From: Ignavibacteria bacterium
GTDB lineage: Bacteria; Bacteroidota; Ignavibacteria; UBA10030
Assembly: GCA_016873755.1 (NCBI GenBank)
Contig: VGWB01000016.1
Span: forward strand, 1 to 33,166
Direction of reading: 5' to 3'
Length of the DNA stretch: 33,166 nt
Shown here: piece after piece, positions 9,770 through 33,166 of the stretch
How positions within the stretch are numbered: the stretch's first letter is position 1
Layout: each line of letters starts with the position of its first letter
Notes under the pieces: generated by a model
Seen by the model: the letters and a program-made list of their open reading frames with translations, nothing else
The model's database searches: none
What the model was told of the DNA's origin: nothing
Program-made: the position numbers and the translations under genes

Positions 9770-9845
9770 GGGGTAATCTCCTCTTCAGGGTCTCCCCGAG
9801 GTAAGGGGGGTGCGCCCGAGTGTGATTACCCCGTTTTTGTTTTTC
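9770..9845 (+). terminator. Terminator-like stem with T-rich tail
   Basis: GGGGTAATC at 9770-9778 pairs with GATTACCCC at 9824-9832, followed at once by GTTTTTGTTTTT. The loop is long (45 bases) and GC-rich. It lies after the three-gene surface module and is the best candidate for its end. Confidence 0.6.
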
Positions 9846-9854
9846 GGCAGTTAT

Positions 9855-10311: not shown

Positions 10312-10351
10312 TTTACGAGCCAAAGGAAAAACCATTCCAACTTTCACGTGG

Positions 10352-17468: not shown

Positions 17469-17473
17469 GTTAC

Positions 17474-17558
17474 AAGTCCGACTTCTGCCGGGGAAACCTT
17501 CCGAAGGTTCTCACAGCAGCTCTCAGACCCTCGGAAGGTTCAAGAAGAAGTCGGACTT
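17474..17558. repeat. Nested perfect palindrome between hydrolase and kinase genes
   Basis: AAGTCCGACTTCT (17474-17486) pairs perfectly with AGAAGTCGGACTT (17546-17558), and inside it AACCTTCCGA (17495-17504) pairs perfectly with TCGGAAGGTT (17531-17540). The two arm pairs are nested, giving a long stem-loop that starts 6 bases after a stop. There is no T-run. The kinase ribosome binding site (AAGGAG, 17568-17573) lies just outside. Confidence 0.75.
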
Positions 17559-17581
17559 CTGCCTCGGAAGGAGTTTCGAAC

Positions 17582-19069
17582 ATGTACAGCATCGGTTATG
17601 ATGTTGGAAGTTCATTTGTGAAGGCGGCGATCGTTGACGTTGAGCAGGGCAGCGTCATCGCGTCAGTTTCGTATCCCGAAAAGGAAATGGTTATCCATTC
17701 GCCCGTACAGGGGTGGGCAGAACAAGATCCTGCCACGTGGTGGGATGCGGTACGGAAGGTGACGAAGCTCGCGGAATCCAAAGCACCTGGATCGCTTCAG
17801 CAGGTACGGGCCATCGGGATCTCTTACCAAATGCATGGGCTTGTTCTGGTTGACCGGAACGGCACGCCGCTTCGTCCATCAATCATTTGGTGTGACAGTC
17901 GGGCAACGGAGATCGGCAGAAAAGCTTTTGCCGAGCTTGGGGAGAAAACTTGCCTGGCTGAACTCCTCAATTCACCGGGGAATTTCACCGCCTCGAAGCT
18001 GCGCTGGGTCATAGAGAACGAGCCGGCACTCTATGAGAAAGCATTCAAAGCGTTTCTTCCGGGAGACTATGTGGCCCTTAAGCTGACAGGCGATTTCAAA
18101 ACGACGGTTTCCGGCCTGTCCGAAGGAATGCTCTGGAACTTCCGCGACCACGGCCTTGCTGAACGGGTGCTGGGCCACTACGGAATCCGAAAGGATGTGC
18201 TTGCCGATATCGTTCCCACGATGGGTACACAAGGATACCTGACAGCTTCTGCGGCGCAGGAGTTATCGCTGAAGGCAGGAATCCCGGTCTCCTATCGGGC
18301 AGGTGATCAGCCGAACAACGCTTTCTCTCTGAAGGTCTTGGAACCTGGAGAGATAGCAGCCACAGCAGGGACTTCGGGTGTCGTCTATGCCGTGAGTAGT
18401 TCACTGAACTGTGACCCGCAATCGCGCATCAATGCGTTTGCCCACATCAATCATCAGCGCAACGCACCCCGGATTGGCATTCTGCTGTGCATCAATGGAA
18501 CGGGGATTTCGAACAGCTGGATTCGGAAGCTGATCGATGATGCCGCCTTGTCGTACGATGAAATGAATCGGCACGCCTCAACAGTTCCGGTCGGCTCGCG
18601 TGGAGTAATAGTCCTCCCCTTCGGAAATGGGGCAGAAAGGATGCTGGGAGATCGGGACGTCGGAGCGGCGGCCCTTCAGTTGAACTTCAACGTGCACGGC
18701 AAGCAGGAGTTGCTTCGCGCAGTCCAGGAAGGGGTGGCATTTGCCTTCAAGTACGGGCTCGACATTATGCAGTCGATGGAGATCAAGCCGCAAGTGCTCC
18801 GGGCCGGGGCAGCAAACATGTTTCTAAGCCCGGTCTTCTGCTCAACGCTCGCTTCTGTAACCGGGATCTCTATAGAGCTCTACAACACGGACGGCGCACA
18901 GGGTGCGGCCCGGGCAGCGGCAGTCGGCGCAGGATTAGTCCCGTCCCTCGCTGATGGCTTCAAGGGGATCGAGCACATCAAGACCGTTGAGCCCGAGCGA
19001 GATCAAGCCGATTATCTTGAGGCGTACAAAGCGTGGCTTGGCGCGTTGAAGGCAGCGCTCGGTCAATAG
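17582..19069 (+). CDS. FGGY-family carbohydrate kinase, xylulokinase-like
   Basis: The 495-residue cytoplasmic enzyme phosphorylates a sugar or sugar alcohol with ATP. It begins YSIGYDVGSSFVKAAIVD, the phosphate-1 loop of the ASKHA fold. Residues about 80-105 read ISYQMHGLVLVD and PSIIWCDSRA, which are typical of xylulokinases (QMHG sugar-binding segment). GDQPNNAF and TAGTSGVVYAV (about 258-268) form the adenosine/phosphate-2 region, and RAGAANMFLSPVF with the C-terminal helix complete the ATPase core. Length is normal. XylB-like is the closest reading, but the FGGY family also contains L-fuculose, rhamnulose and ribulose kinases, so the substrate stays open. AAGGAG 8 bases upstream fixes the ATG. 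It sits between exported hydrolases and transporters, as expected for the step that traps imported sugar. Confidence 0.86.
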   Translation: MYSIGYDVGSSFVKAAIVDVEQGSVIASVSYPEKEMVIHSPVQGWAEQDPATWWDAVRKVTKLAESKAPGSLQQVRAIGISYQMHGLVLVDRNGTPLRPSIIWCDSRATEIGRKAFAELGEKTCLAELLNSPGNFTASKLRWVIENEPALYEKAFKAFLPGDYVALKLTGDFKTTVSGLSEGMLWNFRDHGLAERVLGHYGIRKDVLADIVPTMGTQGYLTASAAQELSLKAGIPVSYRAGDQPNNAFSLKVLEPGEIAATAGTSGVVYAVSSSLNCDPQSRINAFAHINHQRNAPRIGILLCINGTGISNSWIRKLIDDAALSYDEMNRHASTVPVGSRGVIVLPFGNGAERMLGDRDVGAAALQLNFNVHGKQELLRAVQEGVAFAFKYGLDIMQSMEIKPQVLRAGAANMFLSPVFCSTLASVTGISIELYNTDGAQGAARAAAVGAGLVPSLADGFKGIEHIKTVEPERDQADYLEAYKAWLGALKAALGQ

Positions 19070-19077
19070 GCCATGAC

Positions 19078-19141
19078 GTAGGTCGGCTCGCCTGAGCCGA
19101 CTGACCGGGCAACGATGGACGGGACCGGCGTCCCGTCCTAC
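19078..19141. repeat. Double-hairpin palindromic element between kinase and ATPase genes
   Basis: Hairpin one is GTCGGCTC/GAGCCGAC (19082-19089 with 19094-19101, loop 4). Hairpin two is GGACGGGAC/GTCCCGTCC (19117-19125 with 19130-19138, loop 4). Both stems are perfect. The edges GTAGG and CCTAC are also complementary. It looks like a REP-type repeat and has no T-run. Confidence 0.65.
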
Positions 19142-19145
19142 AAGG

Positions 19146-20654
19146 ATGGATCGCTTGTCAACAGATATCGTTCAGTTCCAAAATATCAGCAAGCGTTTCG
19201 GCGGAACCGTGGCACTTGACGATGTTAGCTTCTTTGCCCGGGACGGAGAAATCCACGCTGTCATGGGGGAAAACGGCGCCGGCAAGTCGACTCTGATGAG
19301 AATTCTTTCCGGAGTCCTGCAAATGGATTCGGGCACGTTGCTTCTCAATGGTAAGGAGAAACTCTTTCGATCTCCGGTCGACGCGCAGCGGGAGGGGATC
19401 AGCACTGTCTATCAGGAGCCGTACCTCGTTCCCCACATGAGCGTTGCAGAGAATGTGTTCCTGGGGCATGAACGAACGAAGCGGTTAGGAGTTGTCGACT
19501 TCGCGTACCTGAATGCCCACACTGAAAGAATCCTCGGAACGCTGGACCTCAAAGTATCGCCGACGGAGCTGCTCCTTAATCTGAGTCCGGCGGAAGTACA
19601 GCTTGTCCAAATTGCACGGGCGATCGCATTCTCAACGAGGATCCTCGTCCTTGATGAGCCCACTTCCTCCCTTACCGAACACGAGACGAAGATTCTGTTC
19701 GAGCTACTGAAGAAGCTCAATGCAAATGGTTTGACAATCATGTATGTCTCTCATCGCCTCAAAGAGATCTTTGAGCTCTGTCATCGGGCGACGGTATTGC
19801 GGGATGGAAAATATGTCGGCACCGTCGATGTTGAAAGGACGAACGAGAAAGAGATGATCAGCATGATGGTGGGGCGGGAGATCACGGAGCTCGGCGTAGC
19901 GGCCCGGCCTGCGCGTGCCGATACGCGCCTGGAGGTGAGGGGACTGTCGGTTTCACAAGCGCCTGTGCACGTAAAAGATGTGTCCATTGCTGTCCGAAGC
20001 GGGGAGATCGTCGCGCTGGCCGGCCTCGTTGGCTCCGGTCGGAGCGAGGTTGCCAAAGCCATCTTTGGCATCAACCGGATGGATACCGGTAAGGTGTGCA
20101 TCGACGGGAAAGAGGTGATCATCAATAGCCCGAGAGATGCGATTCGATATGGCATGGCCTTCGTGCCTGAAGATCGCAAGGGGGAGGGGCTTATCTCAAC
20201 GCAATCAATTAAATACAATATCTCCCTCACGGGCCTGAGACTGCTTTCGAAGTTCGGGTTCATCCGCGGCGCGTCTGAAAGGAGTCTTGCCCGCGCAAGC
20301 TCGAAACAGCTCGAGATCAAGTCTTCATCCGAAGACGCAGAGGTCTTCACATTGAGTGGCGGGAATCAACAGAAGGTTGTTCTGGCAAAATGGCTCTGGC
20401 TGAAGCCGCTGATTCTGGTATTGGACGAGCCGACCCGCGGGATCGATGTGGGTGCCAAGGCGGAAATTCATGGTCTGATCTTTGAGCTTGCAAAGACCGG
20501 AGTAGCGGTCCTTCTTGTTTCTTCCGAGCTTCCGGAGATCCTGAAGCTGGCGGATCGGATCTATGTTATGAGAGATGGGCAAATCGTCGGTCAGCTGAGC
20601 CGCCACGAGGCAAGTCAGGAAGCAATTATGCGCCTGGCGGCGATAGGAAACTAG
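19146..20654 (+). CDS. Sugar ABC transporter ATPase with two nucleotide-binding domains (RbsA/MglA/XylG type)
   Basis: This 502-residue protein has the double-domain layout of carbohydrate-uptake-2 family ATPases. Domain one has Walker A GENGAGKST (41-49), signature LSPAEVQL (146-153), Walker B ILVLDEPT (166-173) and switch H203. Domain two has the degenerate Walker A LVGSGRSE (294-301, no Lys, as usual for this class), signature LSGGNQQK (403-410) and LILVLDEPTRGID (422-434). All key residues are present, so it should be an active ATPase. No permease or binding-protein gene is next to it; the following genes are sodium symporters instead. Partners may lie elsewhere, or the gene may be a leftover of a lost ABC operon. 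The ATG follows a hairpin directly; TTG at 19155, 8 bases after AAGGA, is a plausible alternative start. Confidence 0.88.
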   Translation: MDRLSTDIVQFQNISKRFGGTVALDDVSFFARDGEIHAVMGENGAGKSTLMRILSGVLQMDSGTLLLNGKEKLFRSPVDAQREGISTVYQEPYLVPHMSVAENVFLGHERTKRLGVVDFAYLNAHTERILGTLDLKVSPTELLLNLSPAEVQLVQIARAIAFSTRILVLDEPTSSLTEHETKILFELLKKLNANGLTIMYVSHRLKEIFELCHRATVLRDGKYVGTVDVERTNEKEMISMMVGREITELGVAARPARADTRLEVRGLSVSQAPVHVKDVSIAVRSGEIVALAGLVGSGRSEVAKAIFGINRMDTGKVCIDGKEVIINSPRDAIRYGMAFVPEDRKGEGLISTQSIKYNISLTGLRLLSKFGFIRGASERSLARASSKQLEIKSSSEDAEVFTLSGGNQQKVVLAKWLWLKPLILVLDEPTRGIDVGAKAEIHGLIFELAKTGVAVLLVSSELPEILKLADRIYVMRDGQIVGQLSRHEASQEAIMRLAAIGN

Positions 20655-20700: not shown

Positions 20701-22632
20701 ATGAAATCGGTCAACATATTCGATCACATTGTCGTTGGAGCATATTTTCTCTTTATGCTCGGCATCGGTCTGTATTTCATGCGGTTCAACAAAGGAGCCA
20801 GGGAGTATTTCGCCGGGGGGAACATGATCCCGTGGTGGGCGTCAGGCATGACGCTGTACATGGCGAATTTCACCGCATGGACCTTCTCGGGGGCAGCCGG
20901 ATTTACGTACAGTACCGGGCCGTTCATGCTGATCTGGTTCTCCATCGGCTCTGTTGCGTACTTCATCGGGTCCTTTCTCACGGCGAAGCGCTGGCGAAGA
21001 ACCCGGTCCATTTCTCCTGTGGAGTACACCCACGCGCGCTACAACACCACGACGCAGCAATTCCTCAGCTGGGTCATTGCCATCAACTTTACCCTGTCGG
21101 CTGGCGTGCAGCTTGCGGCGACGTCGAAGCTGCTGTCACCCGTGATGAATCTCGATGTCAACACGATGACACTGGTTACGGGCGGCGTCATTCTCTTGTA
21201 CACATTTCTCGGAGGCGTCTGGGCTGTTTCGATCACAGATGTGGTGCAGGGAGTGATTCTCCTCGGAACAACGTTCATCGTTGCGCCGCTGAGTCTTTCA
21301 CTCGTTGGTGGCGTGAGCGGCCTCTTTGAGCAGCTTCCCCCGCTGACATTTGACCACGTGTACAATGGGGTCCACTACGACGAGCACTGGCTGATATCAA
21401 TCCTCCTGATTTCGATCATCGGATTTGCTGCGGGTTCGGGTCAACGCTTCTATTCCGTCAAAGACGAGAAATCGGCTTTGCGCGTCGGCTGGCTTGCCGC
21501 GTTGCTTGGGCTTGCCGGTCCCCTCACCTTTGGCGTCCCGCCGCTTGTTGCGAGAGTCCTCTGGCCGGACCTTTCACAGGTGGATTTCTTTGCACCCTAC
21601 CTTGGCAGCAACCCGCAGGATCTGGTCTATCTCGCGCTCTGCGTGAAGTTCCTGCCAAACGGTTTGATCGGCGTGTTCATTGCTGCAATGCTTGCGGCAA
21701 CGATGAGTACCCTCAGCTACGTGTACAACATGGTATCGTCTGTCTTTGCGCGCGATATGTATCAAGGCTTGTTCCGACCACAGACGAAGGATGAAGAGCT
21801 GCTCAAAGTCGGTCGCACGGCGTCGGTCGCCATCGGTCTGATCGTCACAACGCTGGCGCTCATTTTCATTAACAGCCAGTTTGGCATCTTCAACATGATG
21901 CAGGTGTTCTTCACGTTGTTCAACATCCCGGTGACCGTCCCGTTGTGTTTCGGCTTGATCTTCCGCAGGGTACCCAAATGGTCGGCGGTCGCAGGCATCA
22001 CGTGGGGTCTGCTGGCCGGGATTGCGGGGCGCTACGTGTTGGGGTGGGACATCGGGCCGCAGGTGTACCTCGCGTTCGCGATGACATTCGGTATCTACGC
22101 GACATCCTACTGGACAGCGAAGCTCTACACCTCCAACAAGCCGGTGCTGTTGCTCATCAGTGTCCTCATCGCAGTTGGTGCAGGCCTCCTGTTCACGCAA
22201 ACGATGGTCGGGGCTCAAACGGAGCTCTCCGTGGGAGTCGCGTGGCTCTGCGCAATCGCGTTTGGTGCGAGCCTGTATGGTTTTGCCAAGCTGTTCACCA
22301 CAGACAACGAAGATGACATGCGCGTTCTCGCAGAGTTCTTCAAGAAGCTTGATACACCGGTGGATGTGAACAAGGAAGTGTTCGGTGCAGGGAAGATGCA
22401 GATTTCTGCCTTCCCACTCGTCGGCGGTACCATGATGGTCATGGGTGTGCTGATGAGCCTGGTCTTTCTAACCGGACTGCGGCGGGAGGAGGCAATCATT
22501 GTTGGGATATTCGTTTCGTTCATGATTCTCTTAGGTGCAACCTTGTGGTACCTCGGGAAGAGGTCTGAGATACGGGGGCCGGTGCCTGAAGCCGCAGACG
22601 CCGATGATAGAATTCACAACCCCAAACAGTGA
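20701..22632 (+). CDS. Sodium:solute symporter (SSS family), first of a tandem pair
   Basis: The 643-residue integral membrane protein belongs to the SSS/SLC5 family, which couples sodium to uptake of sugars, organic acids and other solutes. It starts with a membrane segment (IVVGAYFLFMLGIGLYFM), then the family block REYFAGGNMIPWWASGMTLYMANFTAW, read here as two adjacent helices. The segment SISPVEYTHARYN and a helix with LSAGVQLAATSKLL follow, and the region around SYVYNMVSSVFARDMYQ (about 340-355) is also typical. The core plus an extended C-terminus (about 520-643: EFFKKLDTPVDV, KEVFGAGKMQIS, two more helices) makes it longer than a minimal SSS protein. AGGAGAGGA directly before the ATG gives a strong ribosome binding site. 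Sugar or sugar-acid uptake is inferred from the locus. Confidence 0.88.
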   Translation: MKSVNIFDHIVVGAYFLFMLGIGLYFMRFNKGAREYFAGGNMIPWWASGMTLYMANFTAWTFSGAAGFTYSTGPFMLIWFSIGSVAYFIGSFLTAKRWRRTRSISPVEYTHARYNTTTQQFLSWVIAINFTLSAGVQLAATSKLLSPVMNLDVNTMTLVTGGVILLYTFLGGVWAVSITDVVQGVILLGTTFIVAPLSLSLVGGVSGLFEQLPPLTFDHVYNGVHYDEHWLISILLISIIGFAAGSGQRFYSVKDEKSALRVGWLAALLGLAGPLTFGVPPLVARVLWPDLSQVDFFAPYLGSNPQDLVYLALCVKFLPNGLIGVFIAAMLAATMSTLSYVYNMVSSVFARDMYQGLFRPQTKDEELLKVGRTASVAIGLIVTTLALIFINSQFGIFNMMQVFFTLFNIPVTVPLCFGLIFRRVPKWSAVAGITWGLLAGIAGRYVLGWDIGPQVYLAFAMTFGIYATSYWTAKLYTSNKPVLLLISVLIAVGAGLLFTQTMVGAQTELSVGVAWLCAIAFGASLYGFAKLFTTDNEDDMRVLAEFFKKLDTPVDVNKEVFGAGKMQISAFPLVGGTMMVMGVLMSLVFLTGLRREEAIIVGIFVSFMILLGATLWYLGKRSEIRGPVPEAADADDRIHNPKQ

Positions 22633-22671
22633 TCTGATCCATTGCGCTCGGATCCGGGAGGAGAACATCGG

Positions 22672-24600
22672 ATGAAAGAGGTCAACATCTACGACTACCT
22701 CGTTGTTATCGGATACTTCGTGTTCATGTTGGGCATTGGTCTGTATTTCATGAAGATCAACAAGAGCGGAAAGGAGTATTTCGCCGGAGGCAGCATGATC
22801 CCGTGGTGGGTGTCCGGCATGACATTATACATGGCGAATTTCAGCGCCTGGACGTTTACGGGAGCTGCAGGGTTTGCCTACGCGACGGGATGGTTTGCCA
22901 TACTCTACTTCGGGACGTGGTCGATTGCCTATTATGCGGGGTCGCAGCTTACCGCAGCACGGTGGCGCCGGACGCGCTCAATTTCCCCGGTGGAATACAC
23001 CTACACGCGATTCAACTTCACAACCCAGCAGTTCCTTAGTCTCGTCATAGCCACCAACTTCACACTGTCGGCGGGAGTGCAACTGGCTGCGACCTGCAAG
23101 CTGCTTGCGCCGGTGATGGGCCTGGATATTACTATGGTAACCGTGGTGACCGGCATCGTCATTCTTCTCTATACATTCATGGGCGGATTATGGGCAGTCT
23201 CAATCACGGACGTTGTTCAGGGTGTGATTCTGCTCAGCATCACCTTCATTGTGATGCCGCTGGCCCTGGGATTGGTCGGCGGACCAATCAATCTGGTCAA
23301 CGCTCTGCCGCCGCTCTCGTTCGACCACATGTACAACGGGGTACGCTACACCGAGCATTGGCTTGTTTCCATCTTCATCATTATGAGTCTTGGTACGGCC
23401 GCAGGGGCGGCCCAGCGGTTCTACAGCGTCAAAGATGAAAAGGACGCCAAGCGTGTAGGTAAGCTGGCGGGTGGATTGTTTCTCACCGTTCCGTTGGTGT
23501 TTGGTGTGCCTCCTCTTGTTGCCAAAGTTGTCTGGCCGGATCTGTCGCAGGTCGATTTCTTCAAGCCCTACATCGGCAGCAATCCTCAGGACCTGGTGTT
23601 CATCGGTCTTTGTTTGAAGCTTCTGCCGAACGGACTTGTCGGTGTCTTCCTTGCCGCGATGCTTGCTGCTACGATGAGTGCACTCAGTTCAGTGTACAAC
23701 ATGGTTTCTTCGATCCTCTCAAGAGACATCTATCAGGGTTGGATTCGTCCTACAACGACGGACGTCGGGTTACTCACCGTGGGAAGGGTATTTTCCGTCG
23801 TGTTAGGTCTGATTGTGACATCACTAGCCGTGATATTTGTGACCAGCCAGTTCGGCATCTTCAACTGGATGCAGGCGTTCTTCACACTGCTGAACATCCC
23901 GGTTGTTGTGCCTATAGCGTGTGGGTTGCTGTTCAGGAGAATCCCCAAATGGTCTGCAATAAGTGCGATCACCTGGGGATTGATCGTGGGTGTCACTGCG
24001 CGGTTTATCCTGGGGTGGGACATCGGGCCGCAGGTCTACCTCGCGTTTGTGATGACGTTCGGGATTCTCTCCACATCCTATTGGACCGGCCAGTGGTACA
24101 AGACAAGAAAATGGCTGCTGAGTCTTGCTTCGCTAGGGGTGACGGTGGCTACCGCTTTGCTGTTCACGCGCACGATCGTCGGGAACCCGTGGGGATTGGA
24201 TGGGCAGCTTCAACATGCGCTTGCTTATCTTAGTCCCCTCATTCTTGGGGCGAGCCTCATTGGATTTGCCAGGCTCTTTGCATCGGAGACGGAGGAGCAG
24301 CGTAAGATGGTCGACGAATTCTTCAAGAAGCTCGACACGCCCGTGAATGTTCTCAAGGAAGTCTTCGGGGCAGGCAAGAGGCAAATTTCTACCTTTCCAC
24401 TGGTGGGCAGCACGACGATTATCATGGGGCTGCTAATGAGTCTGATCTTCCTGACCGATCTGCCTGAGGGAGAGGCGATCATTCTCGGCGTCATGATCAG
24501 TATCATGATTCTTTTTGGGGCAGCGATGTGGTACTTCGGAAAGAAATCTGAAATTCGCACGGCTGCTCAATACGAGCAAAAAGTACACACAGAGGAGTAA
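22672..24600 (+). CDS. Sodium:solute symporter (SSS family), second of a tandem pair
   Basis: This 642-residue protein is a paralogue of the preceding symporter over its full length: VNIYDYLVV, KEYFAGGSMIPWWVSGMTLYM, SISPVEYTYTRFN, LSAGVQLAATCKLL, VYNMVSSILSRDIYQ and the C-terminal FFKKLDTPVNVLKEVFGAGK all recur in the same order. ATG 22672 is chosen because GGGAGGAG sits 8 bases upstream; the frame also opens at TTG 22642 but without a ribosome binding site. It begins 39 bases after the first symporter, consistent with local duplication and co-transcription. The copies have diverged most in the loops after the second and ninth helices, so they may take different products of the same polysaccharide. 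The gene is followed 29 bases later by the LarA-like gene. Confidence 0.88.
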   Translation: MKEVNIYDYLVVIGYFVFMLGIGLYFMKINKSGKEYFAGGSMIPWWVSGMTLYMANFSAWTFTGAAGFAYATGWFAILYFGTWSIAYYAGSQLTAARWRRTRSISPVEYTYTRFNFTTQQFLSLVIATNFTLSAGVQLAATCKLLAPVMGLDITMVTVVTGIVILLYTFMGGLWAVSITDVVQGVILLSITFIVMPLALGLVGGPINLVNALPPLSFDHMYNGVRYTEHWLVSIFIIMSLGTAAGAAQRFYSVKDEKDAKRVGKLAGGLFLTVPLVFGVPPLVAKVVWPDLSQVDFFKPYIGSNPQDLVFIGLCLKLLPNGLVGVFLAAMLAATMSALSSVYNMVSSILSRDIYQGWIRPTTTDVGLLTVGRVFSVVLGLIVTSLAVIFVTSQFGIFNWMQAFFTLLNIPVVVPIACGLLFRRIPKWSAISAITWGLIVGVTARFILGWDIGPQVYLAFVMTFGILSTSYWTGQWYKTRKWLLSLASLGVTVATALLFTRTIVGNPWGLDGQLQHALAYLSPLILGASLIGFARLFASETEEQRKMVDEFFKKLDTPVNVLKEVFGAGKRQISTFPLVGSTTIIMGLLMSLIFLTDLPEGEAIILGVMISIMILFGAAMWYFGKKSEIRTAAQYEQKVHTEE

Positions 24601-24629: not shown

Positions 24630-25922
24630 ATGAAGATTCATCTTGCATACGGCAAAGAGGGGCTGGACATCGAGGTGCCAGACAGGAATCTGGCGAAAGT
24701 GCTGACCCTTGATGCTGTTCCACCACTCGAGAGCCCCGCGGATGCTGTTTGGCATTCACTCGGGCAACCCATGGGTTCGCCCCCGCTCGGTGAGCTTGCC
24801 AGGCGGGCAAAGAGAGCTTGTGTCGTTGTGTGTGATGTCACGCGACCCGTGCCGAATTCGATTCTTCTTCCTCCTGTTATGCAAACGCTGGAAGATCACG
24901 GTATCCAGCGCCAAGATATTACCATTCTGATTGCGACCGGCCTCCACCGACCGAGCACAGCTGAGGAACTGGAGTTGATCCTCGGCCCCGCCCTGGCAGA
25001 ACGATACACCGTGATGCACCATCGCGCACGTGTGAAAGAAGAGCAAATATTCCTTGGCGAGACGGCGAGAAAAACACCGGTATACATTGACAAGGCATAC
25101 TGTGCGGCGGATCTGAAAATCACGATTGGATTCATCGAGCCCCATCTTATGGCAGGATTCTCGGGGGGCCGAAAAATGACGGCTATCGGATGTGCCGGGG
25201 AAGAAACCATCAAGACGCTCCACAGTCCGTTGTTTCTTGATGATCCTCGATGCTGTGAGGGCTCGATCGACGGTAATCCGCTCCACCACGAGTTGCTGGA
25301 AATCGCTGCGATGGCTGGCCACGACTTCAGCCTCGATGTCTCTATGGATGAAGCAAGGAGCATCACCGGTGTTTTTGCCGGTGAGCCGGGCGCAGCACAC
25401 GCGGCTGGAGTGCACGCTGTCCGCGGCTTTGTTCGCTCAACCGTGAAGGAGCCGGTTGATATCGTCATCAGCACGAGTGCGGGTTATCCTTTGGATCTGA
25501 CCTATTACCAATCGATCAAAGGGATGACGGTAGCGCTGCCGGTTGTCAAGAAGGGGGGAATGGTGATCCTTGCGGCCGAGTGTGCTGAGGGATTAGGAAG
25601 TGACACGTTCTCAGCGATGGCTACCCGCTTTCCGAGTGCGGATGACTTTGAGAGGTGGGTTCACAGCAATCCTGTCGAAATTGACCAGTGGCAACTTCAG
25701 GAATGTGCTAAGGCCGCGCAGCATGCTGAGATCGTTCTCATCTCCCGGGGGATGACCAGCGATCAGCTGGCGAAACTGTTTATCCACTCGGCGGAGAATG
25801 TGGGAGAGGCGCTTGAGCAAGGCTTCAGGCGATATGGGCCGAACGCTTCCGTGGCTGTAATTCCCAAGGGACCATACACGCTCGTCGAGGTTGTCCGGCC
25901 TTCCAGTGAGTCTGCAACATAG
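24630..25922 (+). CDS. LarA-family (nickel-pincer) 2-hydroxyacid racemase/epimerase homologue
   Basis: This 430-residue protein matches the lactate racemase family (formerly DUF2088). Residues known from Lactobacillus plantarum LarA are kept at a constant offset of two: H106 (ATGLHRP), H172 and K182 (EPHLMAGFSGGRK) and H198 (LHSPLF). These correspond to H108, H174, K184 (covalent attachment of the nickel-pincer cofactor) and H200. DVTRP (69-73) and YYQSIKGM are also conserved. The protein should therefore bind the cofactor. LarB, LarC and LarE, which make it, are not in the window. Members of this family act on lactate and on other 2-hydroxy acids, including sugar acids; the flanking sugar genes make an aldonate or hexonate 2-epimerase more likely than lactate racemase, but this is inference. 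No strong ribosome binding site is seen; it lies 29 bases after a symporter gene. Confidence 0.87.
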   Translation: MKIHLAYGKEGLDIEVPDRNLAKVLTLDAVPPLESPADAVWHSLGQPMGSPPLGELARRAKRACVVVCDVTRPVPNSILLPPVMQTLEDHGIQRQDITILIATGLHRPSTAEELELILGPALAERYTVMHHRARVKEEQIFLGETARKTPVYIDKAYCAADLKITIGFIEPHLMAGFSGGRKMTAIGCAGEETIKTLHSPLFLDDPRCCEGSIDGNPLHHELLEIAAMAGHDFSLDVSMDEARSITGVFAGEPGAAHAAGVHAVRGFVRSTVKEPVDIVISTSAGYPLDLTYYQSIKGMTVALPVVKKGGMVILAAECAEGLGSDTFSAMATRFPSADDFERWVHSNPVEIDQWQLQECAKAAQHAEIVLISRGMTSDQLAKLFIHSAENVGEALEQGFRRYGPNASVAVIPKGPYTLVEVVRPSSESAT

Positions 25923-26079: not shown

Positions 26080-26853
26080 ATGGCACCGGATTACACGGTA
26101 CCCGCCATCGATCGTGCAATCAAGGTTCTGGAGCTCCTTTCCGCTTCGCCGCGTGGTATGTCACTTGCCCAGCTCGCTCTGCAAACACGAGTTCCCAAAA
26201 GCACGATGTTCCGGATTCTCCAGACGCTCCAGGAGCATTCGATCGTCGTGGAAGATGCAGAGCGGAAGCTTTTCACGCTCGGTATGAAGCTGCTTGAATG
26301 GGGACACGCAGCACTGGCGCGAATCGATCTGAAAACAATCGCGCATCCCCACTTGGTGAAACTAGCCCATGAAACGCGGGAAAGCTTCTACCTTGCTCTG
26401 CTCGATCGTGATGAGGTCATCCTTGTGGACCACGTCGACACACCGGAGATTTGGAAGATGGTTACCAGGCTCGGCTATCGGTCGCCATTCCATTGCACGG
26501 CAACGGGGCTTGTGCTCGCAGCGGATATGACGGAAGACGAAGTGCGGGGGATGATTGAGCGCCAGGGCCTCAAACGGTTCACGGCGAAGACGATGACCAC
26601 GTCCGCGCGGTTGAAGAAACGGCTCGCAGAGGTGCGCCATTTGGGTTGCGCCGTTGTCGACGGAGAGTACAAGCCCGACCTCTGCGCGATCGCTGTGCCG
26701 ATCAGGGACTACATGGGGAAAGTCGCTGCGTCACTGATGACGGCAATCCCGTCAGACCGGAGCAGCAGGGACGAGAAGCTCGTGGAGGGTTTGATTGAGG
26801 TCCTGAAGAAGGAGGCTGCGCTGATCTCGAAGCAGATCGGCTACGCCGAATGA
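26080..26853 (+). CDS. IclR-family transcriptional regulator
   Basis: The 257-residue protein has the two-domain plan of IclR regulators. Residues about 5-65 are a winged helix-turn-helix (PAIDRAIKVLELLSASPRGMSLAQLA, VPKSTMFRILQTLQEHSIVV), and residues about 80-250 the effector-binding domain (ESFYLALLDRDEVILVDHVD, FHCTATGLVLAA, CAVVDGEYKPDLCAIAVPI, the last being a family hallmark). IclR proteins commonly sense small acids or sugar-acid catabolites and control adjacent catabolic genes. Here a consensus promoter and a small palindrome lie directly upstream, so it is likely autoregulated and controls the genes that follow, perhaps the whole island. The signal is unknown; sugar acids such as 2-keto-3-deoxygluconate, known for the KdgR subgroup, would fit the context. 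Confidence 0.9.
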   Translation: MAPDYTVPAIDRAIKVLELLSASPRGMSLAQLALQTRVPKSTMFRILQTLQEHSIVVEDAERKLFTLGMKLLEWGHAALARIDLKTIAHPHLVKLAHETRESFYLALLDRDEVILVDHVDTPEIWKMVTRLGYRSPFHCTATGLVLAADMTEDEVRGMIERQGLKRFTAKTMTTSARLKKRLAEVRHLGCAVVDGEYKPDLCAIAVPIRDYMGKVAASLMTAIPSDRSSRDEKLVEGLIEVLKKEAALISKQIGYAE

Positions 26854-26952
26854 GAAGTATCGGGTGGGGTGTCGCGCGCGTCTCGCATTCGCACTCATAC
26901 CGCGCGCTACCGGTGCTGCTTTCCATACACATATACACCCGGGGTAACAGCT

Positions 26953-27774
26953 ATGCACCGACTCTCTCTCGCATTTGTAAGCGACGAAATCTCCGCAGAT
27001 TTCCGTGAAGCTGCCCGGTATGGCACACAGTGGGGTATCTCGACGTACGAACTTCGCATGCTGAAAACGGGCCGGGTGCCGGACGTGCAGGCAGATGAAC
27101 TAGAAAACATCATGGCTGCGGTCAAAGAATATGGAATCAAGATTTCAGCACTGTCTCCGGGAATCTTCAAGCATCCTCTTTCGCAACAATCGTTGCTGAA
27201 CGATGAGCTCACCGACGTCCTTCCCCGAACGATGGCAATGGCAAAGGAGTTTGAAGCTCCGCTCGTCATTGTGTTTGGCTTTCAGCGTGAACGGGACGAG
27301 CCGGCAGAGAATTTCGAAAAGGCGGTTGGATGGATGCGCCGGGCTGCAGAACTGGCCGCTCAGAACAACATCGTCCTTGCGGTTGAGAATGAGCCCGGCT
27401 TCTGGTGCGATTCGGGTGCGAACACAGCGAAGATGATCAGTGCAGTCAACTCACGCGCGCTGAGAGCCAACTGGGATCCGTGCAATGGATACGGCACGAA
27501 GGAGGTTCCTTTTCCCGACGGTTACCAGGCAATCAAGAAGTTCATTGCCAATGTCCACGTGAAAGACACAAAAGAGGGGTCGTTGGTTCAATGCGTTCCC
27601 GTCGGAGAAGGCGCTATTGACTGGAAGGGGCAACTTGAGGCCCTGATGTGTGACCGCATTGTGAATCATGTGAGCATCGAGACCCACTGCTTACCTCTCA
27701 TTGAAAAATCCCAACAGAACGTTGCCACACTCACGAGATACCTGAACGAGATCCAAAGCCGTTTGGAGGCATAA
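26953..27774 (+). CDS. Sugar phosphate isomerase/epimerase (xylose-isomerase-like TIM barrel)
   Basis: This 273-residue cytoplasmic enzyme belongs to the AP-endonuclease-2/xylose-isomerase-like superfamily. The metal-binding set of the family is visible at the ends of barrel strands: E145 (LAVENEP), D175 (ANWDPCN), H202 (NVHVKD) and E243 (VSIETH). Members isomerise or epimerise sugars, inositols or dehydrated sugar acids. ATG 26953 is used because the family start (HRLSLAFVSDEI) follows it at once; the frame opens earlier at 26869 but that stretch is Arg/Thr-rich and not family-like. It is 99 bases after the IclR gene and 2 bases before a Tat-exported hydrolase gene. Which sugar it acts on is not readable. 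Confidence 0.84.
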   Translation: MHRLSLAFVSDEISADFREAARYGTQWGISTYELRMLKTGRVPDVQADELENIMAAVKEYGIKISALSPGIFKHPLSQQSLLNDELTDVLPRTMAMAKEFEAPLVIVFGFQRERDEPAENFEKAVGWMRRAAELAAQNNIVLAVENEPGFWCDSGANTAKMISAVNSRALRANWDPCNGYGTKEVPFPDGYQAIKKFIANVHVKDTKEGSLVQCVPVGEGAIDWKGQLEALMCDRIVNHVSIETHCLPLIEKSQQNVATLTRYLNEIQSRLEA

Positions 27775-27776
27775 GC

Positions 27777-29966
27777 ATGAGCATAGAACGCCGTGATTTC
27801 CTCAAAGCAGTTGGCGCAGGGGCGCTCGCCGCAACGATCAAGCCCCCATTCACCAATGAACAAAAATCTTCTGGGGAGAACGAGCAGAAGGTTCATCATG
27901 ACTTCCGCACGAACAATCCGGGGGTGGAATACTTCTGTTTGGGCAATGGTCTTGTCCTAGCAGCGGTTCAAGTGTCGCCAAAACCAGAGGATGGTACTCA
28001 TTGTGGTATGCTTTTCATGTCGACTGAGCACTTCGCCCGCAAGATGAGCACCTACCTGTTCCATCCTGAACGGGGACTTCAGAACACGCGGTTCACGGCA
28101 GTGATCGATGGGAAAGGCTACGTCGCAGAGTACGACAAATCTAAGGTTCACTGGGAGTATCCCGACGGGATCCCCACGATCGTGATGGAATGGGAGGCCG
28201 GTAGCTGTTCCGTGCGTGAAGAACTGATGTGTCCTATCAACGACCCGGCTGTCGTGCGGTCCGTGAGTATTCACAACAAGGGCAGGACCGATGTTCAAGC
28301 CGGCGGTACAGTCCTCCTCTATCCAAATCTAATGTACTTCGATGAGTATTCCGTCGATCGCAAACGGATGACGCTTTCAGCTTCCGGCTACCAAACGATG
28401 CAGTTGTTCACCTTTGAGGAGGCCACAGCTGGTGATCGTCATCTGAACATCCGGCTTGGCGAGATACCGGCGGGCGGGACGAAATCAGCTATTATTGTCC
28501 TCACGTTAAACATGAAACGGTTGGCGGTCGAAAAGAAGGGAATGCAGCGGATGCTCGAAGAAACAAAGAGATATTGGGCCGGGCGCGCAGCGTTTGACGC
28601 TGGCAACGAGCATTTGAATCATCTCTTCGACTGCTCGAAGACGGGACTGCGGGCAGGTGTGGCCAGGTCGGGAAAGATGGATGCAAGTATCTGGCAGTAC
28701 AACTTCGAGTGGGTTAGGGACAGCAGCATGGTTGCGATCGGGTGTGCGCTCAGCGGGCACACCGATATCGCTGAAGCCCTGCTGCGGCGTATTCTCGAGC
28801 GCTCAGTGGACGACGAAGGGCGAGCAATCGACGCAAGTCGGCACCGTCCCCCCGCGACGATTGAACTGGATCAGAACGGTGAACTCATCTATACCCTGTG
28901 GACACATTGGGTATGGACCGGAAGCGACGCCGTCATCAAGGATTATTGGCCCAAGATCAAGGCTGTTGCGGACTACGTTTTGCGGCCGGAGTTTCGTGAT
29001 CCTGCCACGGGGCTTCTGAAGAACTCGCGTGAGTTTTGGGAGCGTGACCCTTCGTTTGGTGTGAGGGAAGGATATGAACTCGCTTACCAGGTCTGGAATA
29101 TTGTAGGTCTGCAGGCCGGATCAGAGATCGCGAGCCACATGAAGGATCCGGCTGCGGAGAGAAGGTGGCTTGCTGCCTCTCGCCTAATGAGAGACTCATT
29201 CCTGCACCATCCCACCCACTCATTCGTCGATGACGGCAAATTCATCAAGCGTCGTCTCACCGACGGTCAGGTTCAGAGGACGTTCGAGCCACCCAATCGG
29301 AAAGCCATGCCTCCTGGTGTGCCGTTGAATGTGGAATCGGTTTCCTATATCAACCCTGATACAGCGAGCGTGCTACCGATGATGCTCGGCGTGTTGGATC
29401 CAAGGAGCTCGGTCGCGCTGAAGACGCTGGAGTCGATGGAAGAGCTATGGAATCAGCGATGGACGACAGGGGGTTATGCCCGGTACCATGTGACGTCCGA
29501 GCCAGACTCGCCGGGTCCCTGGCCCTTTGCGACAATGTTCCTTGCGCGCGCGTATTTTGAAGCGGGCAATGACGAGAAGGTTTGGCGAGCTCTTGACTGG
29601 CTGCTGAAGGCACCGGGCGGAAAAGCTGGCGCGTGGTTTGAGTGCTATGTCGATCGGCCTGTCCCGCCCCTGCCGCCCTTGGGCATTGTGATCTGGACGT
29701 GGGCTGAAATAGTCACATTTTTTGTGCATCACCTTCTGGGAGTTCAGCCAACACCGAAGACCCTGGTGATCCGCCCTCGTCTTCTCCAGGGGCTCGATGG
29801 GATCAAAGCCAAGGTCGTTGTGCGGGGACGGGATGTCGTCCTTGATCTCAAAAGGACGACGGCAGAGGTGAGCGCAATGGTCAACAGGAAGAGGGTCGAT
29901 CTCAAGGACGGTGCCTTGATTCTTCCTCTGCCGCAAAAGAATCTGACCGTTGAGATGAACATCTGA
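27777..29966 (+). CDS. Tat-exported six-hairpin glycosidase-like protein (second paralogue)
   Basis: The 729-residue protein starts with a twin-arginine signal (ERRDFLKAVGAGALAATI). GGAGG 9 bases before the ATG overlaps the end of the preceding gene, showing tight coupling. It is a full-length paralogue of the gene at 15186: WQYNFEWVRD (about 306-315), LDQNGELIYTLWTHWVWTGSD, REFWERDPSFGVREGYELAYQVW, YARYHVTSEPDSPGPWP and the C-terminal LVIRPRLLQGLDGIK all recur in order. The first copy has WVID where this one has WVRD, a possible difference near the active site. Export in folded form suggests the enzyme acts in the periplasm on oligosaccharides. The exact family and substrate are unknown. Confidence 0.78.
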   Translation: MSIERRDFLKAVGAGALAATIKPPFTNEQKSSGENEQKVHHDFRTNNPGVEYFCLGNGLVLAAVQVSPKPEDGTHCGMLFMSTEHFARKMSTYLFHPERGLQNTRFTAVIDGKGYVAEYDKSKVHWEYPDGIPTIVMEWEAGSCSVREELMCPINDPAVVRSVSIHNKGRTDVQAGGTVLLYPNLMYFDEYSVDRKRMTLSASGYQTMQLFTFEEATAGDRHLNIRLGEIPAGGTKSAIIVLTLNMKRLAVEKKGMQRMLEETKRYWAGRAAFDAGNEHLNHLFDCSKTGLRAGVARSGKMDASIWQYNFEWVRDSSMVAIGCALSGHTDIAEALLRRILERSVDDEGRAIDASRHRPPATIELDQNGELIYTLWTHWVWTGSDAVIKDYWPKIKAVADYVLRPEFRDPATGLLKNSREFWERDPSFGVREGYELAYQVWNIVGLQAGSEIASHMKDPAAERRWLAASRLMRDSFLHHPTHSFVDDGKFIKRRLTDGQVQRTFEPPNRKAMPPGVPLNVESVSYINPDTASVLPMMLGVLDPRSSVALKTLESMEELWNQRWTTGGYARYHVTSEPDSPGPWPFATMFLARAYFEAGNDEKVWRALDWLLKAPGGKAGAWFECYVDRPVPPLPPLGIVIWTWAEIVTFFVHHLLGVQPTPKTLVIRPRLLQGLDGIKAKVVVRGRDVVLDLKRTTAEVSAMVNRKRVDLKDGALILPLPQKNLTVEMNI

Positions 29967-29987: not shown

Positions 29988-31058
29988 ATGGCTATTCTTT
30001 TTGGACGTGATCACTCTCGAGAAGATCTCCAGAAGCGGGTCGGTCATCTCCTGCAAGTAGCAGGTGTTCGATTGATGACGCTGACGGAGGGAAGCGAGGC
30101 GGGCGTCCACATTGCTGATGTGCGGAGTGGATCCGGCCTGCGTTTTCAGGTCTCACTCGATCGGGGCATGGATATCTCGATGGCGGATTATAAGGGAATC
30201 CCGCTCGCCTGGCGCTCCGCAAGTGGAGATGTGCACCCGAGCTACTACGACCCGCGGGGGCTCGGATGGGCGCGGTCGTTTCCCGGAGGATTGCTAACAG
30301 GTTGCGGTCTTACCTATCTCGGTGCTCCCTGCGTTGATGAGGGTGAGGAGCTCGGTCTGCACGGCCGACTCTCAAACACTCCTGCGACAGATATCAAGAC
30401 AGGAACCCAGTGGGTTGATGATCGTTGCATCTTCACCATTGATGGAGTTATCCGGGAGAGTACCCCCTTCGGCTATGATCTTGTCCTTCGCCGGACGATA
30501 GAGATCGAGCTTGGCGAATCCACCATCACCCTTCGTGATGTCGTCAGCAACGAAGGATACCGTCGATCGCCGTTGATGATTCTCTATCATATCAATCCAG
30601 GCTGGCCGCTTGTTGATGAAGGTGCGAAGTTGCTGCTGGACGCAGCATCAACCATTCCCCGTGATGAAGAGGCAACAAAAGGATTCGACCGCGCAACTAC
30701 GATGTCGGGTCCCCTCCCTAACTTCAAAGAACAGGTTTTTTTCCACGATCTGAAAGCGGACGGGATGGCGATGGCAACAGCCCTTCTGGCAAATACGAAG
30801 CTCAAGCTTGGCCTCTTCGTGCGCTATCGCCAGACGGAGCTGCCGCGGTTCATTGAATGGAAAATGATGGGAGAGGGAGCATACGTGCTCGGTTTGGAGC
30901 CCGCCAACTGCTGGGTTCAAGGGCGTGCCAGAGAACGAGAAAGAGGGACGCTGCAGTTCCTCGATCCTGGGGAACGAAGGACCATTTCACTGCAAATCGG
31001 AATCCTCGATGGGAACGAGGCAATCGACAATTTCGCTCGAGAATATAATCTGCGATGA
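29988..31058 (+). CDS. DUF4432 family protein, aldose-1-epimerase-like
   Basis: This 356-residue protein has the galactose-mutarotase-like beta-supersandwich pattern of the DUF4432 family: FQVSLDRGMDISMADYKGIPLAW near 45-70, then FPGGLLTGCGLTYLG, the conserved LHGRLSNTPA (about 123-132), LRRTIEIELGESTITLRDVVSN and a C-terminal VLGLEPANCWVQGR. DUF4432 genes often sit in sugar-acid and uronate loci, where mutarotation or isomerisation of uronic-acid products has been suggested. No signal peptide is present, so it should act in the cytoplasm. It begins 22 bases after the exported hydrolase, and its stop overlaps the next ATG (ATGA at 31055-31058), indicating translational coupling with the dehydrogenase. 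Confidence 0.85.
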   Translation: MAILFGRDHSREDLQKRVGHLLQVAGVRLMTLTEGSEAGVHIADVRSGSGLRFQVSLDRGMDISMADYKGIPLAWRSASGDVHPSYYDPRGLGWARSFPGGLLTGCGLTYLGAPCVDEGEELGLHGRLSNTPATDIKTGTQWVDDRCIFTIDGVIRESTPFGYDLVLRRTIEIELGESTITLRDVVSNEGYRRSPLMILYHINPGWPLVDEGAKLLLDAASTIPRDEEATKGFDRATTMSGPLPNFKEQVFFHDLKADGMAMATALLANTKLKLGLFVRYRQTELPRFIEWKMMGEGAYVLGLEPANCWVQGRARERERGTLQFLDPGERRTISLQIGILDGNEAIDNFAREYNLR

Positions 31059-32068
31059 AGACAGAGAAAATCAGGATCGGACAGGCCGGTATTGCCAACC
31101 ATGGGAGAACAATTGTCAATGCAGTTCGCGATGCGGGCAATCTTCAGTTGGCCTCATGTTTTGACATCAACGAAAGCGCAAACCGGGCGGTAGCAAAGGA
31201 GTTTGATGCCCGCGCGGCCGCGAGTTACGAGGAACTTGTCCAGGATTCTTCCATCGATGCGGTCGTGCTCGTGACGCCCAACCACCTACACGCTGACCAG
31301 GTGCAGATGGCCATAGCTGCCGGCAAGCACATCTTCGTGGAAAAACCGATTACGAATACTGTGAGTGAAGCTAAACGGTCGATCGCCTTTGCTGGGAAAG
31401 CCGGCCTTACGTTAATGGTCGGTCACAACACTCGGCGGCGGAGGGTCTTTCGTCGGGCCAAGCAGCTGCTCAGCGAGCGGCGGATCGGCACCGTGGTGGG
31501 CGTTGAGGCAAATCTTTCACGCCCGGCGGGCATTCAGGCGGACTTGCCTGCGTGGAAAGCTGATCCGACGAAATGCGCGCTCCTCCCGATGATGCAACTG
31601 GGGATTCACTTTGTCGACACCGTCACGTATCTCCTCGGCCCGATTGCGCGTGTAAGTTGCTTCGCTGCCAATGTTGCGATGCCCGGTAACGTCCTTGATT
31701 CGACTTCAGCACTCCTCCAGCTAGAGTCGGGTATTCCCGTTGCCCTGAGTTCGTACTATGTTTCGGCGGATGCCTATTTTGTGAGGATCTACGGCACCGA
31801 GGGGACAATCCATTGTACGCCGCTGAAGCTGAGGCTGGAGCTCCTTCAGAATGGAGAGTTGAGGGAAGTTCAGGAAGAAGATTTCAGTTCTGAGGGTGCT
31901 GAGAGCTTTGTCCTCCAGATGCGCGAGTTTGGCGAGTGTATCCTCAGGGGAATGAAACCGGAAACCGGCGGCGACGAGGGGTTAATGGCCCTCGCCGTTA
32001 TTGAAGCAATGCTTCGATCGGTCCAGACAAACTCAGTTGTTGAACTAAGAGATATTCTCCATGACTGA
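31055..32068 (+). CDS. Gfo/Idh/MocA-family NAD(P)-dependent oxidoreductase
   Basis: The 337-residue enzyme has an N-terminal Rossmann fold (KIRIGQAGIANHGRTIVNAV, ACFD-type acidic end seen as ASCFDIN), VLVTPNHLHADQVQMAIAAGKHIFVEKPI with the conserved E96-K97-P98, and a C-terminal alpha/beta domain with MQLGIHFVDTVTYLLG. In the latter, His and Asp are the usual catalytic pair. The nucleotide loop reads GQAGIANHG, a slightly irregular version of GxGxxG. Members oxidise or reduce sugars, inositols and sugar acids. It overlaps the DUF4432 gene by 4 bases and the lyase gene by 8 bases (32061-32068), so the three are one translational unit. The substrate is unknown. Confidence 0.88.
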   Translation: MKTEKIRIGQAGIANHGRTIVNAVRDAGNLQLASCFDINESANRAVAKEFDARAAASYEELVQDSSIDAVVLVTPNHLHADQVQMAIAAGKHIFVEKPITNTVSEAKRSIAFAGKAGLTLMVGHNTRRRRVFRRAKQLLSERRIGTVVGVEANLSRPAGIQADLPAWKADPTKCALLPMMQLGIHFVDTVTYLLGPIARVSCFAANVAMPGNVLDSTSALLQLESGIPVALSSYYVSADAYFVRIYGTEGTIHCTPLKLRLELLQNGELREVQEEDFSSEGAESFVLQMREFGECILRGMKPETGGDEGLMALAVIEAMLRSVQTNSVVELRDILHD

Positions 32069-33166
32069 TCGGACGACCACTTCACGGCGCGATTTCCTGA
32101 GCCAAGCAGCGCTGACCGCTTCGCTTCTCGCTGTAAGTCCCTGGCAGCTTCTGATGCGCCCGCCAACCGCAGGTGAAGGTCTTGGATCACGACCTGGGCT
32201 CTTGTTCGATGAGTCGGATGTGGCCCGCATACGGGAGACTGCCAAGCATCCGAGGTTTGCGGCGTATTGGAACACACTGAGCAACGCCAATCTAGAGGTG
32301 GACAAGAGATTCCTCCGCGAAGAACTTCGGTTGAACAACCACGTTTCCGACTTCCTCAAGGCAAGGACAATTCTTGAGCGGACGTCGTTTGTCTACGCCA
32401 TTTCGGGAAATCCCAGCCAGCTTGAAGTCGCCAAGCTTGCCATCGACAGGATTCTGGAATACAGGAAGTGGGACTATTTCCTCGAGGGAGGAGAGCACAC
32501 GATAGGCCTGCAGCGTGCGCCCGAGGCAACGATTGCAATGGCGTTTGCCCGTGAGTGGCTTGATGGGGTGCTCAGCGATGCAACCAAGCGGGAAATTGAA
32601 ATCCAGATTGCAGAAAAGGGAGCGCCCGCGTGTTACCGTACCCTCTACGGCATGAAATATCCTGACCGTGTGCGGGGATGGGGATTTGATCCGGAGAGCG
32701 ATTACAAGTTCCGGTTCGACCTGAGCCGGTGGCCGCTTATCCTCAATTCTACAAATCTTAAAGTCATTCCTATTGCAGGCCTTGGGATCGCCGCCTGTTT
32801 ACTTCATGACAAGCATCCGCAGGCACAGCGATGGCTGGAATTGGCGTTGCAGAGCGCAAGGGCATTCGCCCCGATGTTCGGCTCGGACGGGAGTTATGAT
32901 GAGGGGGTCAGCTACTGGGGTTATACGGCGTTGCATTTGACGCTCTTTGTAGAGGTGCTCTATCGGATACTTGGCATCGACGAGCGTTCGCTGATTAACT
33001 ATCCCGGAACCGTTCGATATGGGCTGCAGATGTCAATGCCAACAACCGGGAAACGTGACGACTCCGTCAACTTCGGTGACGCAAGCACACTTGGGGATGT
33101 TTCCGTAGCGGCCTGGGCTGCCCGGAGGCATCGTGACTCGACAGCGCAGTATGTGGCGACATCCAT
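32061..33166 (+). CDS. Tat-exported heparinase II/III-type polysaccharide lyase, cut by the right edge
   Basis: An ATG overlapping the previous stop opens a frame that runs to the window end (368 codons). Residues 1-28 are a twin-arginine signal (SRRDFLSQAALTASLLAV). The mature start LLFDESDVARIRETAKHPRFAAYW is the usual opening of heparinase II/III and alginate-lyase-like (alpha/alpha)6 domains. Typical segments follow: WPLILNSTNLKVIPIAGLGIAA (about 224-245), FGSDGSYDEGVSYWGYTALHLTLFVEVL (about 273-300, with the candidate catalytic Tyr) and DDSVNFGDAS near the break. These enzymes cleave uronic-acid-containing chains by beta-elimination, which is the best clue to the island's substrate class. 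The beta-sandwich C-terminal domain would lie beyond the edge. Confidence 0.82.
   Translation, partial: MTDRTTTSRRDFLSQAALTASLLAVSPWQLLMRPPTAGEGLGSRPGLLFDESDVARIRETAKHPRFAAYWNTLSNANLEVDKRFLREELRLNNHVSDFLKARTILERTSFVYAISGNPSQLEVAKLAIDRILEYRKWDYFLEGGEHTIGLQRAPEATIAMAFAREWLDGVLSDATKREIEIQIAEKGAPACYRTLYGMKYPDRVRGWGFDPESDYKFRFDLSRWPLILNSTNLKVIPIAGLGIAACLLHDKHPQAQRWLELALQSARAFAPMFGSDGSYDEGVSYWGYTALHLTLFVEVLYRILGIDERSLINYPGTVRYGLQMSMPTTGKRDDSVNFGDASTLGDVSVAAWAARRHRDSTAQYVATS

Follow-up and report, generated by a model that had tools for sequence, protein, structure and literature searches.

The 33,166-nucleotide stretch of Ignavibacteria DNA that we analysed (the window) carries, at positions 24630 to 25922 of the forward strand, a larA homologue assigned to the LarAIp (SAR, or group 2) type by its two LarA domains, its fold and its clade. 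Its 430-residue product matched both Pfam domains of the family, Lar_N with 198.8 bits (E = 7.7e-59, cut-off 23.3) and LarA_C with 101.7 bits (E = 4.9e-29, cut-off 25), and is a full-length LarA-family protein. Two sodium:solute symporter (SSF) genes precede it on the same strand (20701 to 22632, PF00474 152.8 bits; 22642 to 24600, PF00474 142.6 bits), the second immediately 5′ of larA and ending 29 bp before it. After a 157-bp gap on the other side comes a gene for an IclR-family regulator (26080 to 26853; IclR_C and HTH_IclR domains).

The genes farther out, all on the forward strand, are largely of sugar type. Upstream of the symporters lie an XylB-like FGGY sugar kinase gene (17582 to 19069; TIGR01312 284.1 bits, below the cut-off of 380), by model no rhamnulokinase, and a Pfam-matched sugar ABC transporter ATPase gene (19146 to 20654), whose binding protein and permease are absent from the window. 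The two genes adjoin directly across 17582 to 20654, leaving an orphan ATPase; in four related loci (L010, L052, L053, and L062) genes for a binding protein and a permease stand between them. Downstream of the regulator gene follow a xylose-isomerase-like TIM-barrel protein (26869 to 27774; PF01261 98.8 bits), kept after IclR in relatives; a TAT-signal protein of an unclassified family (c1) with weak glycosidase likeness (27777 to 29966; NCBIfam TAT signal; oligosaccharide amylase model 45.5 bits, under cut-off); a DUF4432 protein (29988 to 31058; PF14486 355.8 bits); a GFO/IDH/MocA oxidoreductase (31055 to 32068; PF01408 91.4 bits); and the start of a heparinase II/III-like protein (32061 to 33164), which is 72% identical to the product of L010:17185-19212 (PF07940) and whose 3′ end is open at the window edge.

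Other parts of the window hold several further features. The large proteins encoded at 15186 to 17468 and 27777 to 29966 are related (39% mutual identity) and recur in larA loci; neither gave a useful PDB sequence match or a Pfam family, and they possibly represent an uncharacterised glycosidase family. Both the larA locus (window 12245 to 13399) and the genome's rhaK-rhaA genes (L163:3824-4951, 9772-10821, and 17418-18494, the last two judged by eye) have UroD/MtaA-like methyltransferase homologues nearby. Three genes stand in tandem between 3089 and 9711: one product is carboxypeptidase-regulatory-like, one weakly matches a type IX secretion signal, and one is PorV-like.

In an alignment with L. 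plantarum LarA (numbering from PMC7583248), H106, H172, K182, and H198 of the window protein matched H108, H174, K184, and H200 at a constant offset of 2. Also kept were D69, R72, Y293, Q294, and K297, the equivalents of other catalytic, cofactor, and carboxylate-binding residues of LarA, and the residue set of the LarA superfamily (R72, K182, and H198 together with D69, H106, H172, and K297) is complete. The codons for D-V-T-R at 69 to 72 (24834 to 24845), in which D69 and R72 correspond to LarA D72 and R75, for the catalytic H106 (24945 to 24947), for K182, the counterpart of the lysine that tethers the nickel-pincer cofactor (25173 to 25175), and for H198, the counterpart of the nickel ligand (25221 to 25223), encode residues that are invariant in an 18-row alignment. 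The catalytic H172 and the substrate-loop residues L173-M174 (25143 to 25151) align with H173-L174-M175 of LarAIp (PMC11851776), and a predicted specificity helix contains D352-Q353-W354-Q355 (25683 to 25694), its W-Q being shared with LarAIp. All nine cofactor and catalytic residues were common to the 34 locus rows with at least 35% identity, three of which are duplicates.

The predicted structure of the protein (pLDDT 91.4, pTM 0.88) was closest to 9eia, LarAIp of Isosphaera pallida with D-lactate (Z 57.0, rmsd 1.4 Å over 422 residues), followed by other lactate racemases (Z 50 to 52), malate racemase (42 to 43), and the GntE2 structure 4nar (31.8). It shares with LarAIp (LarAH2/Sar; 9eia/9eid) the fold, the cofactor and catalytic residues, the pocket, and the clade, while differing in overall sequence (45% identity by structure), in an I where LarAIp has the V preceding the catalytic lysine, and in host lineage. 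The lactate racemases of L. plantarum (5huq) and T. thermosaccharolyticum (2yjg) have the same fold (Z 50.8 to 51.4) and the same D, R, H, H, K, H, Y, Q, and K residues, but they carry an F-F substrate loop, show 32 to 33% identity by structure, and fall outside the LarAIp clade.

The window protein is the sole Lar_N homologue of its genome, a fragmented draft of 376 contigs (96.9% complete, 2.5% contaminated). Genes for cofactor maturation were found on three other contigs, all above cut-off: larB (258 bits, C46), larC (463 bits, C120), and larE (318 bits, C8). Since all the residues, the fold, and the three maturation genes are present, use of the nickel-pincer cofactor by this predicted enzyme is well supported. 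A preliminary description of the locus had anticipated cofactor binding from the four aligned residues at constant offset, had placed the gene between sodium symporters and a regulator, and had proposed a search for larB, larC, and larE; the residues and the setting were confirmed, all three genes were found, and cofactor binding is supported. Elsewhere in the group, a LarA-like protein with 26% identity (L049:1480-2886, from genome G071) has M in place of the second catalytic histidine and N in place of the cofactor lysine and has also lost Y293; its gene adjoins a short-chain-dehydrogenase-like ORF, and it is probably not a standard racemase.

Substrate specificity in this superfamily is set by C-terminal helices and by the residue pair that follows the second catalytic histidine (PMC7583248, PMC11770544, PMC11851776), and L-M or F-M as that pair is the group 2 (Sar) signature (PMC7583248). 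The window protein has this signature, the L-M pair together with a bulky hydrophobic pocket residue (W354), and by alignment its L173-M174 and W354-Q355 reproduce the L-M/W-Q pocket of LarAIp. The corresponding reference residues are F-F in the L. plantarum and T. thermosaccharolyticum enzymes, Y-K and H-K in Mar2, and E-S and I-N in GntE2. In a tree of 42 rows that included five references (LarAIp, the two group 1 LarA proteins, Mar2, and GntE2) and omitted the duplicate rows L010, L011, and L012, the window protein grouped with LarAIp, 19 relatives from Ignavibacteriales, and eight from Acidobacteria in a clade with support of 100/98. The two group 1 lactate racemases lay outside this clade, inside a 98/97 group, and GntE2 was far off; long rows, such as Mar2 with L048, are uncertainly placed.

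Among the NCBIfam models for LarA proteins, the best match was the equivalog for nickel-dependent lactate racemase (NF033504), at 395.2 bits, below its cut-off of 460. Orthologues in relatives scored 429 (L056) and 426 (L064), and the LarA of a rhaEW/rhaK operon in genome G005 scored 460.4. Identity as a malate racemase was rejected on the W-Q, not H-K, at the specificity helix and on model scores under the cut-offs (LarAH5, 359 of 462 bits; LarAH6, 372 of 500 bits). LarAIp accepts 14 substrates, including glycerate and 2-hydroxybutyrate, with the highest kcat/KM on L-lactate and 2-hydroxybutyrate (PMC11851776). Given the pocket residues, the clade, the model scores, and the substrate range of LarAIp, the predicted substrate is most likely a short-chain hydroxyacid, with lactate favoured, rather than a sugar acid.

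The nearest named relatives of the protein come from Ignavibacteria metagenome-assembled genomes (66, 64, and 63% identity; one protein used as query, 12 loci found). We surveyed 100 related genomes, of which 31 had some LarA match and 25 reached the threshold of at least 250 bits used here to define larA genomes; those below it were G064 (209), G098 (156), G071 (116), G063, G032, and G023, and LarA was partial in G069 (split) and G031 (at a contig end). The arrangement seen in the window recurs: among the 25 larA genomes, 8 have an SSF gene that precedes larA by 0 to 85 bp, and 17 have an IclR gene directly 3′ of it. Seven of the 25, all from Ignavibacteriales, have a rhamnose gene within 50 bp of larA (span, 6 to 48 bp). 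In four of them (G002, G017, G054, and G066) this is the isomerase gene rhaI, 6 bp away, with TIGR02629 above cut-off in all four; in the other three (G005, G007, and G018) it is rhaEW, 26 to 48 bp away, and the opposite flank of larA holds a rhamnulokinase-like gene, which in G007 scored 486 of 528 bits. The LarA of these three genomes is of a different type, only 35 to 38% identical to that of the window, and G005 has a 50% relative of the window's FGGY kinase on the far side of rhaEW, at a distance of 2.4 kb from larA. The symporter-to-IclR frame that encloses larA in the window encloses RhaEW in G080 and both RhaEW and RhaI in G074. None of the nine Acidobacteria and Spirochaete loci (L013 to L021) contained a rhamnose marker gene, and the linkage is confined so far to Ignavibacteriales. 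Other genes seen beside larA, at L012:3827-8685 and in L054, L061, and L063, include those for short-chain dehydrogenase, lactonase-like, acetoacetate-decarboxylase-like, and D-2-hydroxyacid dehydrogenase proteins.

The window itself has no rhamnose gene next to larA; those of its genome are on other contigs. On C21, a gene for the isomerase RhaA (634.6 bits) adjoins that for rhamnulokinase (TIGR02627 530.3 bits, cut-off 527.95), beside an alpha-L-rhamnosidase-like protein (726 bits, missing the model cut-off of 1720), and C72 carries RhaEW (1048 bits, cut-off 567.75). The RhaI model TIGR02629 found no match in this genome, the isomerase there being of the RhaA type. Isomerase, rhamnulokinase, and RhaEW are thus all present, as in the known L-rhamnose pathways in which RhaEW converts rhamnulose-1-phosphate into L-lactate and DHAP in vitro (PMC3870299), and L-lactate is the expected product here. 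Some of those pathways are extended by L-lactate dehydrogenases, with lldD or lldEFG forming part of some rhamnose regulons (PMC3870299), whereas in the window's genome, where neither full-length LldD nor LutB was found, LarA is the linked lactate enzyme. One strict search for 16-mer palindromes common to the upstream regions of rhaEW, rhaK, and the window operon found none; shuffled sequences also gave none, the search being of low power.

The association also holds across genomes. RhaEW scored above cut-off in 16 of the 100 genomes, and every one of the 16 has larA (P = 1.5e-12). The same was seen within families (11 of 11 in f1, P = 2.8e-6; 5 of 5 in f6, P = 0.035) and at the level of hand-counted genera, where all nine with RhaEW have larA against 13 of 57 overall (P = 8e-8); these tests correct only partly for shared ancestry and use bit thresholds chosen post hoc. 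A rhamnose isomerase, counted as RhaI above 600 bits (8 genomes) or RhaA of at least 250 bits (17 genomes, partial in G069, G083, and G090), was present in 24 genomes, 20 of them with larA and four without it. With any rhamnose marker taken into account, larA accompanied it in 22 of 26 genomes, the exceptions being G030, G049, G071, and G097. Two of these appear to have an alternative rhamnose system in place of a larA orthologue: at L158 and L159 (G049 and G071), LutB/LdhH-like genes, under cut-off in G049, lie near rhamnulokinase-like genes, with a class II aldolase-like gene in L158 and, by eye, candidate shell proteins in both, presumably of the bacterial microcompartment type. The LutB/LdhH-like genes are a possible alternative outlet for L-lactate. 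In the survey as a whole, LutB (above 300 bits) was found in none of the 25 larA genomes against 10 of the 75 without larA (P = 0.06), full-length LldD in 1 of 25 (G005) against 3 of 75; exclusion of the two from larA genomes was not significant (combined P = 0.18).

Genes that may provide an outlet for D-lactate were found beside larA in several relatives. In G074, G090, and G096, larA abuts a gene fusing FAD-binding, FAD-oxidase-C, 4Fe-4S, and CCG domains, a putative enzyme of the D-2-hydroxyacid dehydrogenase type, a fusion also labelled "Dld-II"; in NCBIfam it scored 172 bits for GlcD, below cut-off. A near-full-length relative occurs in 12 of the 100 genomes, and within family f6 in 11 of 11 larA genomes against 0 of 10 others (P = 2.8e-6). 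A gene for an NAD-dependent D-2-hydroxyacid dehydrogenase lies 45 bp from larA in G006 and 15 bp in G019 and is likewise adjacent in G002 and G017. In the window's genome, a search for the FAD/Fe-S fusion gave no full-length relative, only GlcD-like candidates under cut-off. In a Spirochaete locus (L014:7333-11275), larA overlaps a GlcF-like gene that itself follows a GlcD-like gene, the gene ends overlapping or abutting, which suggests a further operon for a racemase and a D-hydroxyacid oxidase.

From these data, we consider it probable that the gene encodes a nickel-pincer 2-hydroxyacid racemase of the LarAIp type with lactate as its main substrate, turning L-lactate derived mainly from rhamnose into D-lactate for oxidation to pyruvate. 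By analogy of its residues, K182 would tether the cofactor that LarB, LarC, and LarE supply, and H198 would hold the nickel; as in LarAIp, H106 and H172 would alternate as acid and base, and the cofactor would take up a hydride from C2 of the hydroxyacid and return it to the opposite face. The genome context suggests that rhamnose isomerase, rhamnulokinase, and RhaEW, a bifunctional aldolase/lactaldehyde dehydrogenase, would convert L-rhamnose into L-lactate, the main source of lactate in vivo, that LarA would racemize the L-lactate to D-lactate, and that an FAD- or NAD-dependent D-2-hydroxyacid dehydrogenase would complete the route to pyruvate. For the order at large, we lean towards the view that L-rhamnose catabolism in Ignavibacteriales regularly includes a nickel-pincer lactate racemase, recruited more than once and replacing oxidation by LldD or LldEFG, two LarA types being found in rhamnose operons.

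A lactate racemase with no tie to rhamnose, which would balance fermentative L-lactate or allow use of external L- and D-lactate taken up through the SSF symporters, seems to us unlikely, though it accounts for several observations. The window's genome encodes an NAD-dependent L-lactate dehydrogenase (393.5 bits, above cut-off), an enzyme commoner in genomes with larA (14 of 25) than in the others (20 of 75; P = 0.014); its presence makes a racemase less than strictly necessary, and lactate may have other sources. For the same reason, the idea that larA substitutes for every L-lactate dehydrogenase failed. A symporter gene stands immediately 5′ of larA, and three larA genomes (G006, G019, and G096) yielded no rhamnose gene. 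This explanation would, however, leave aside the presence of larA in every RhaEW genome, the two LarA types within rhamnose operons, and the shared locus frame that holds rhamnose genes in G074 and G080.

The physiological substrate might instead be a different short 2-hydroxyacid, for instance glycerate or 2-hydroxybutyrate, arising within the sugar pathway of the locus itself. Both compounds are used by LarAIp and by lactate racemases akin to it, some of which act on them better than on lactate (PMC11770544, PMC11851776), and the NAD-dependent dehydrogenases adjacent to larA in four genomes are of putative specificity. We regard this substrate as improbable, since the linkage with RhaEW favours L-lactate and the kcat/KM of LarAIp is highest on L-lactate and 2-hydroxybutyrate.

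Least probable of all, and quite remote in our estimation, is C2 epimerisation of an aldonate or a uronate-derived acid, a substrate that the preliminary description had put forward and that the sugar kinase, TIM-barrel, GFO/IDH/MocA, and heparinase-like genes of the locus would suit, but that we dropped as the leading view on a hexonate-epimerase model score of 28 bits against a cut-off of 500, the absence of the E-V/S pocket signature of GntE (NPN_18) proteins (E-S in GntE2, L-M here), retention of the bulky W354, and membership in the LarAIp clade. The D-gluconate 2-epimerases of the GntE type (4nar) share the superfamily fold and the cofactor residues with the window protein, but differ in the pocket (E-S, W, and G) and in the alpha-14 region and are distant in the tree. 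The same description had read the sugar locus as pointing away from lactate and had named clustering with proven lactate racemases as evidence to the contrary. The sugar setting held and was narrowed by the relatives to L-rhamnose; the non-lactate part did not, the protein clustering with LarAIp, a proven broad-spectrum lactate racemase. A sugar locus does not entail a sugar-acid substrate, because some sugars yield lactate, as L-rhamnose does via RhaEW.

In the literature searched, a link between lactate racemase and rhamnose appears undescribed, though supplementary tables may list it, and nothing connected lactate racemase with lactaldehyde. The word "racemase" is absent from the main text of PMC3870299, and "rhamnose" from the main texts of PMC7583248 and PMC11770544. 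By sequence, the window protein is an ordinary LarA-family enzyme; the new point is its recurrent tie to L-rhamnose catabolism. That tie would explain why a lactate racemase stands inside a sugar locus, and it carries the caution that sugar-type neighbours alone do not imply a sugar-acid substrate. If it is true, it would give LarAIp-type racemases a physiological role, attaching a LarA clade to a defined lactate-producing sugar pathway and, with it, to a testable role in vivo.
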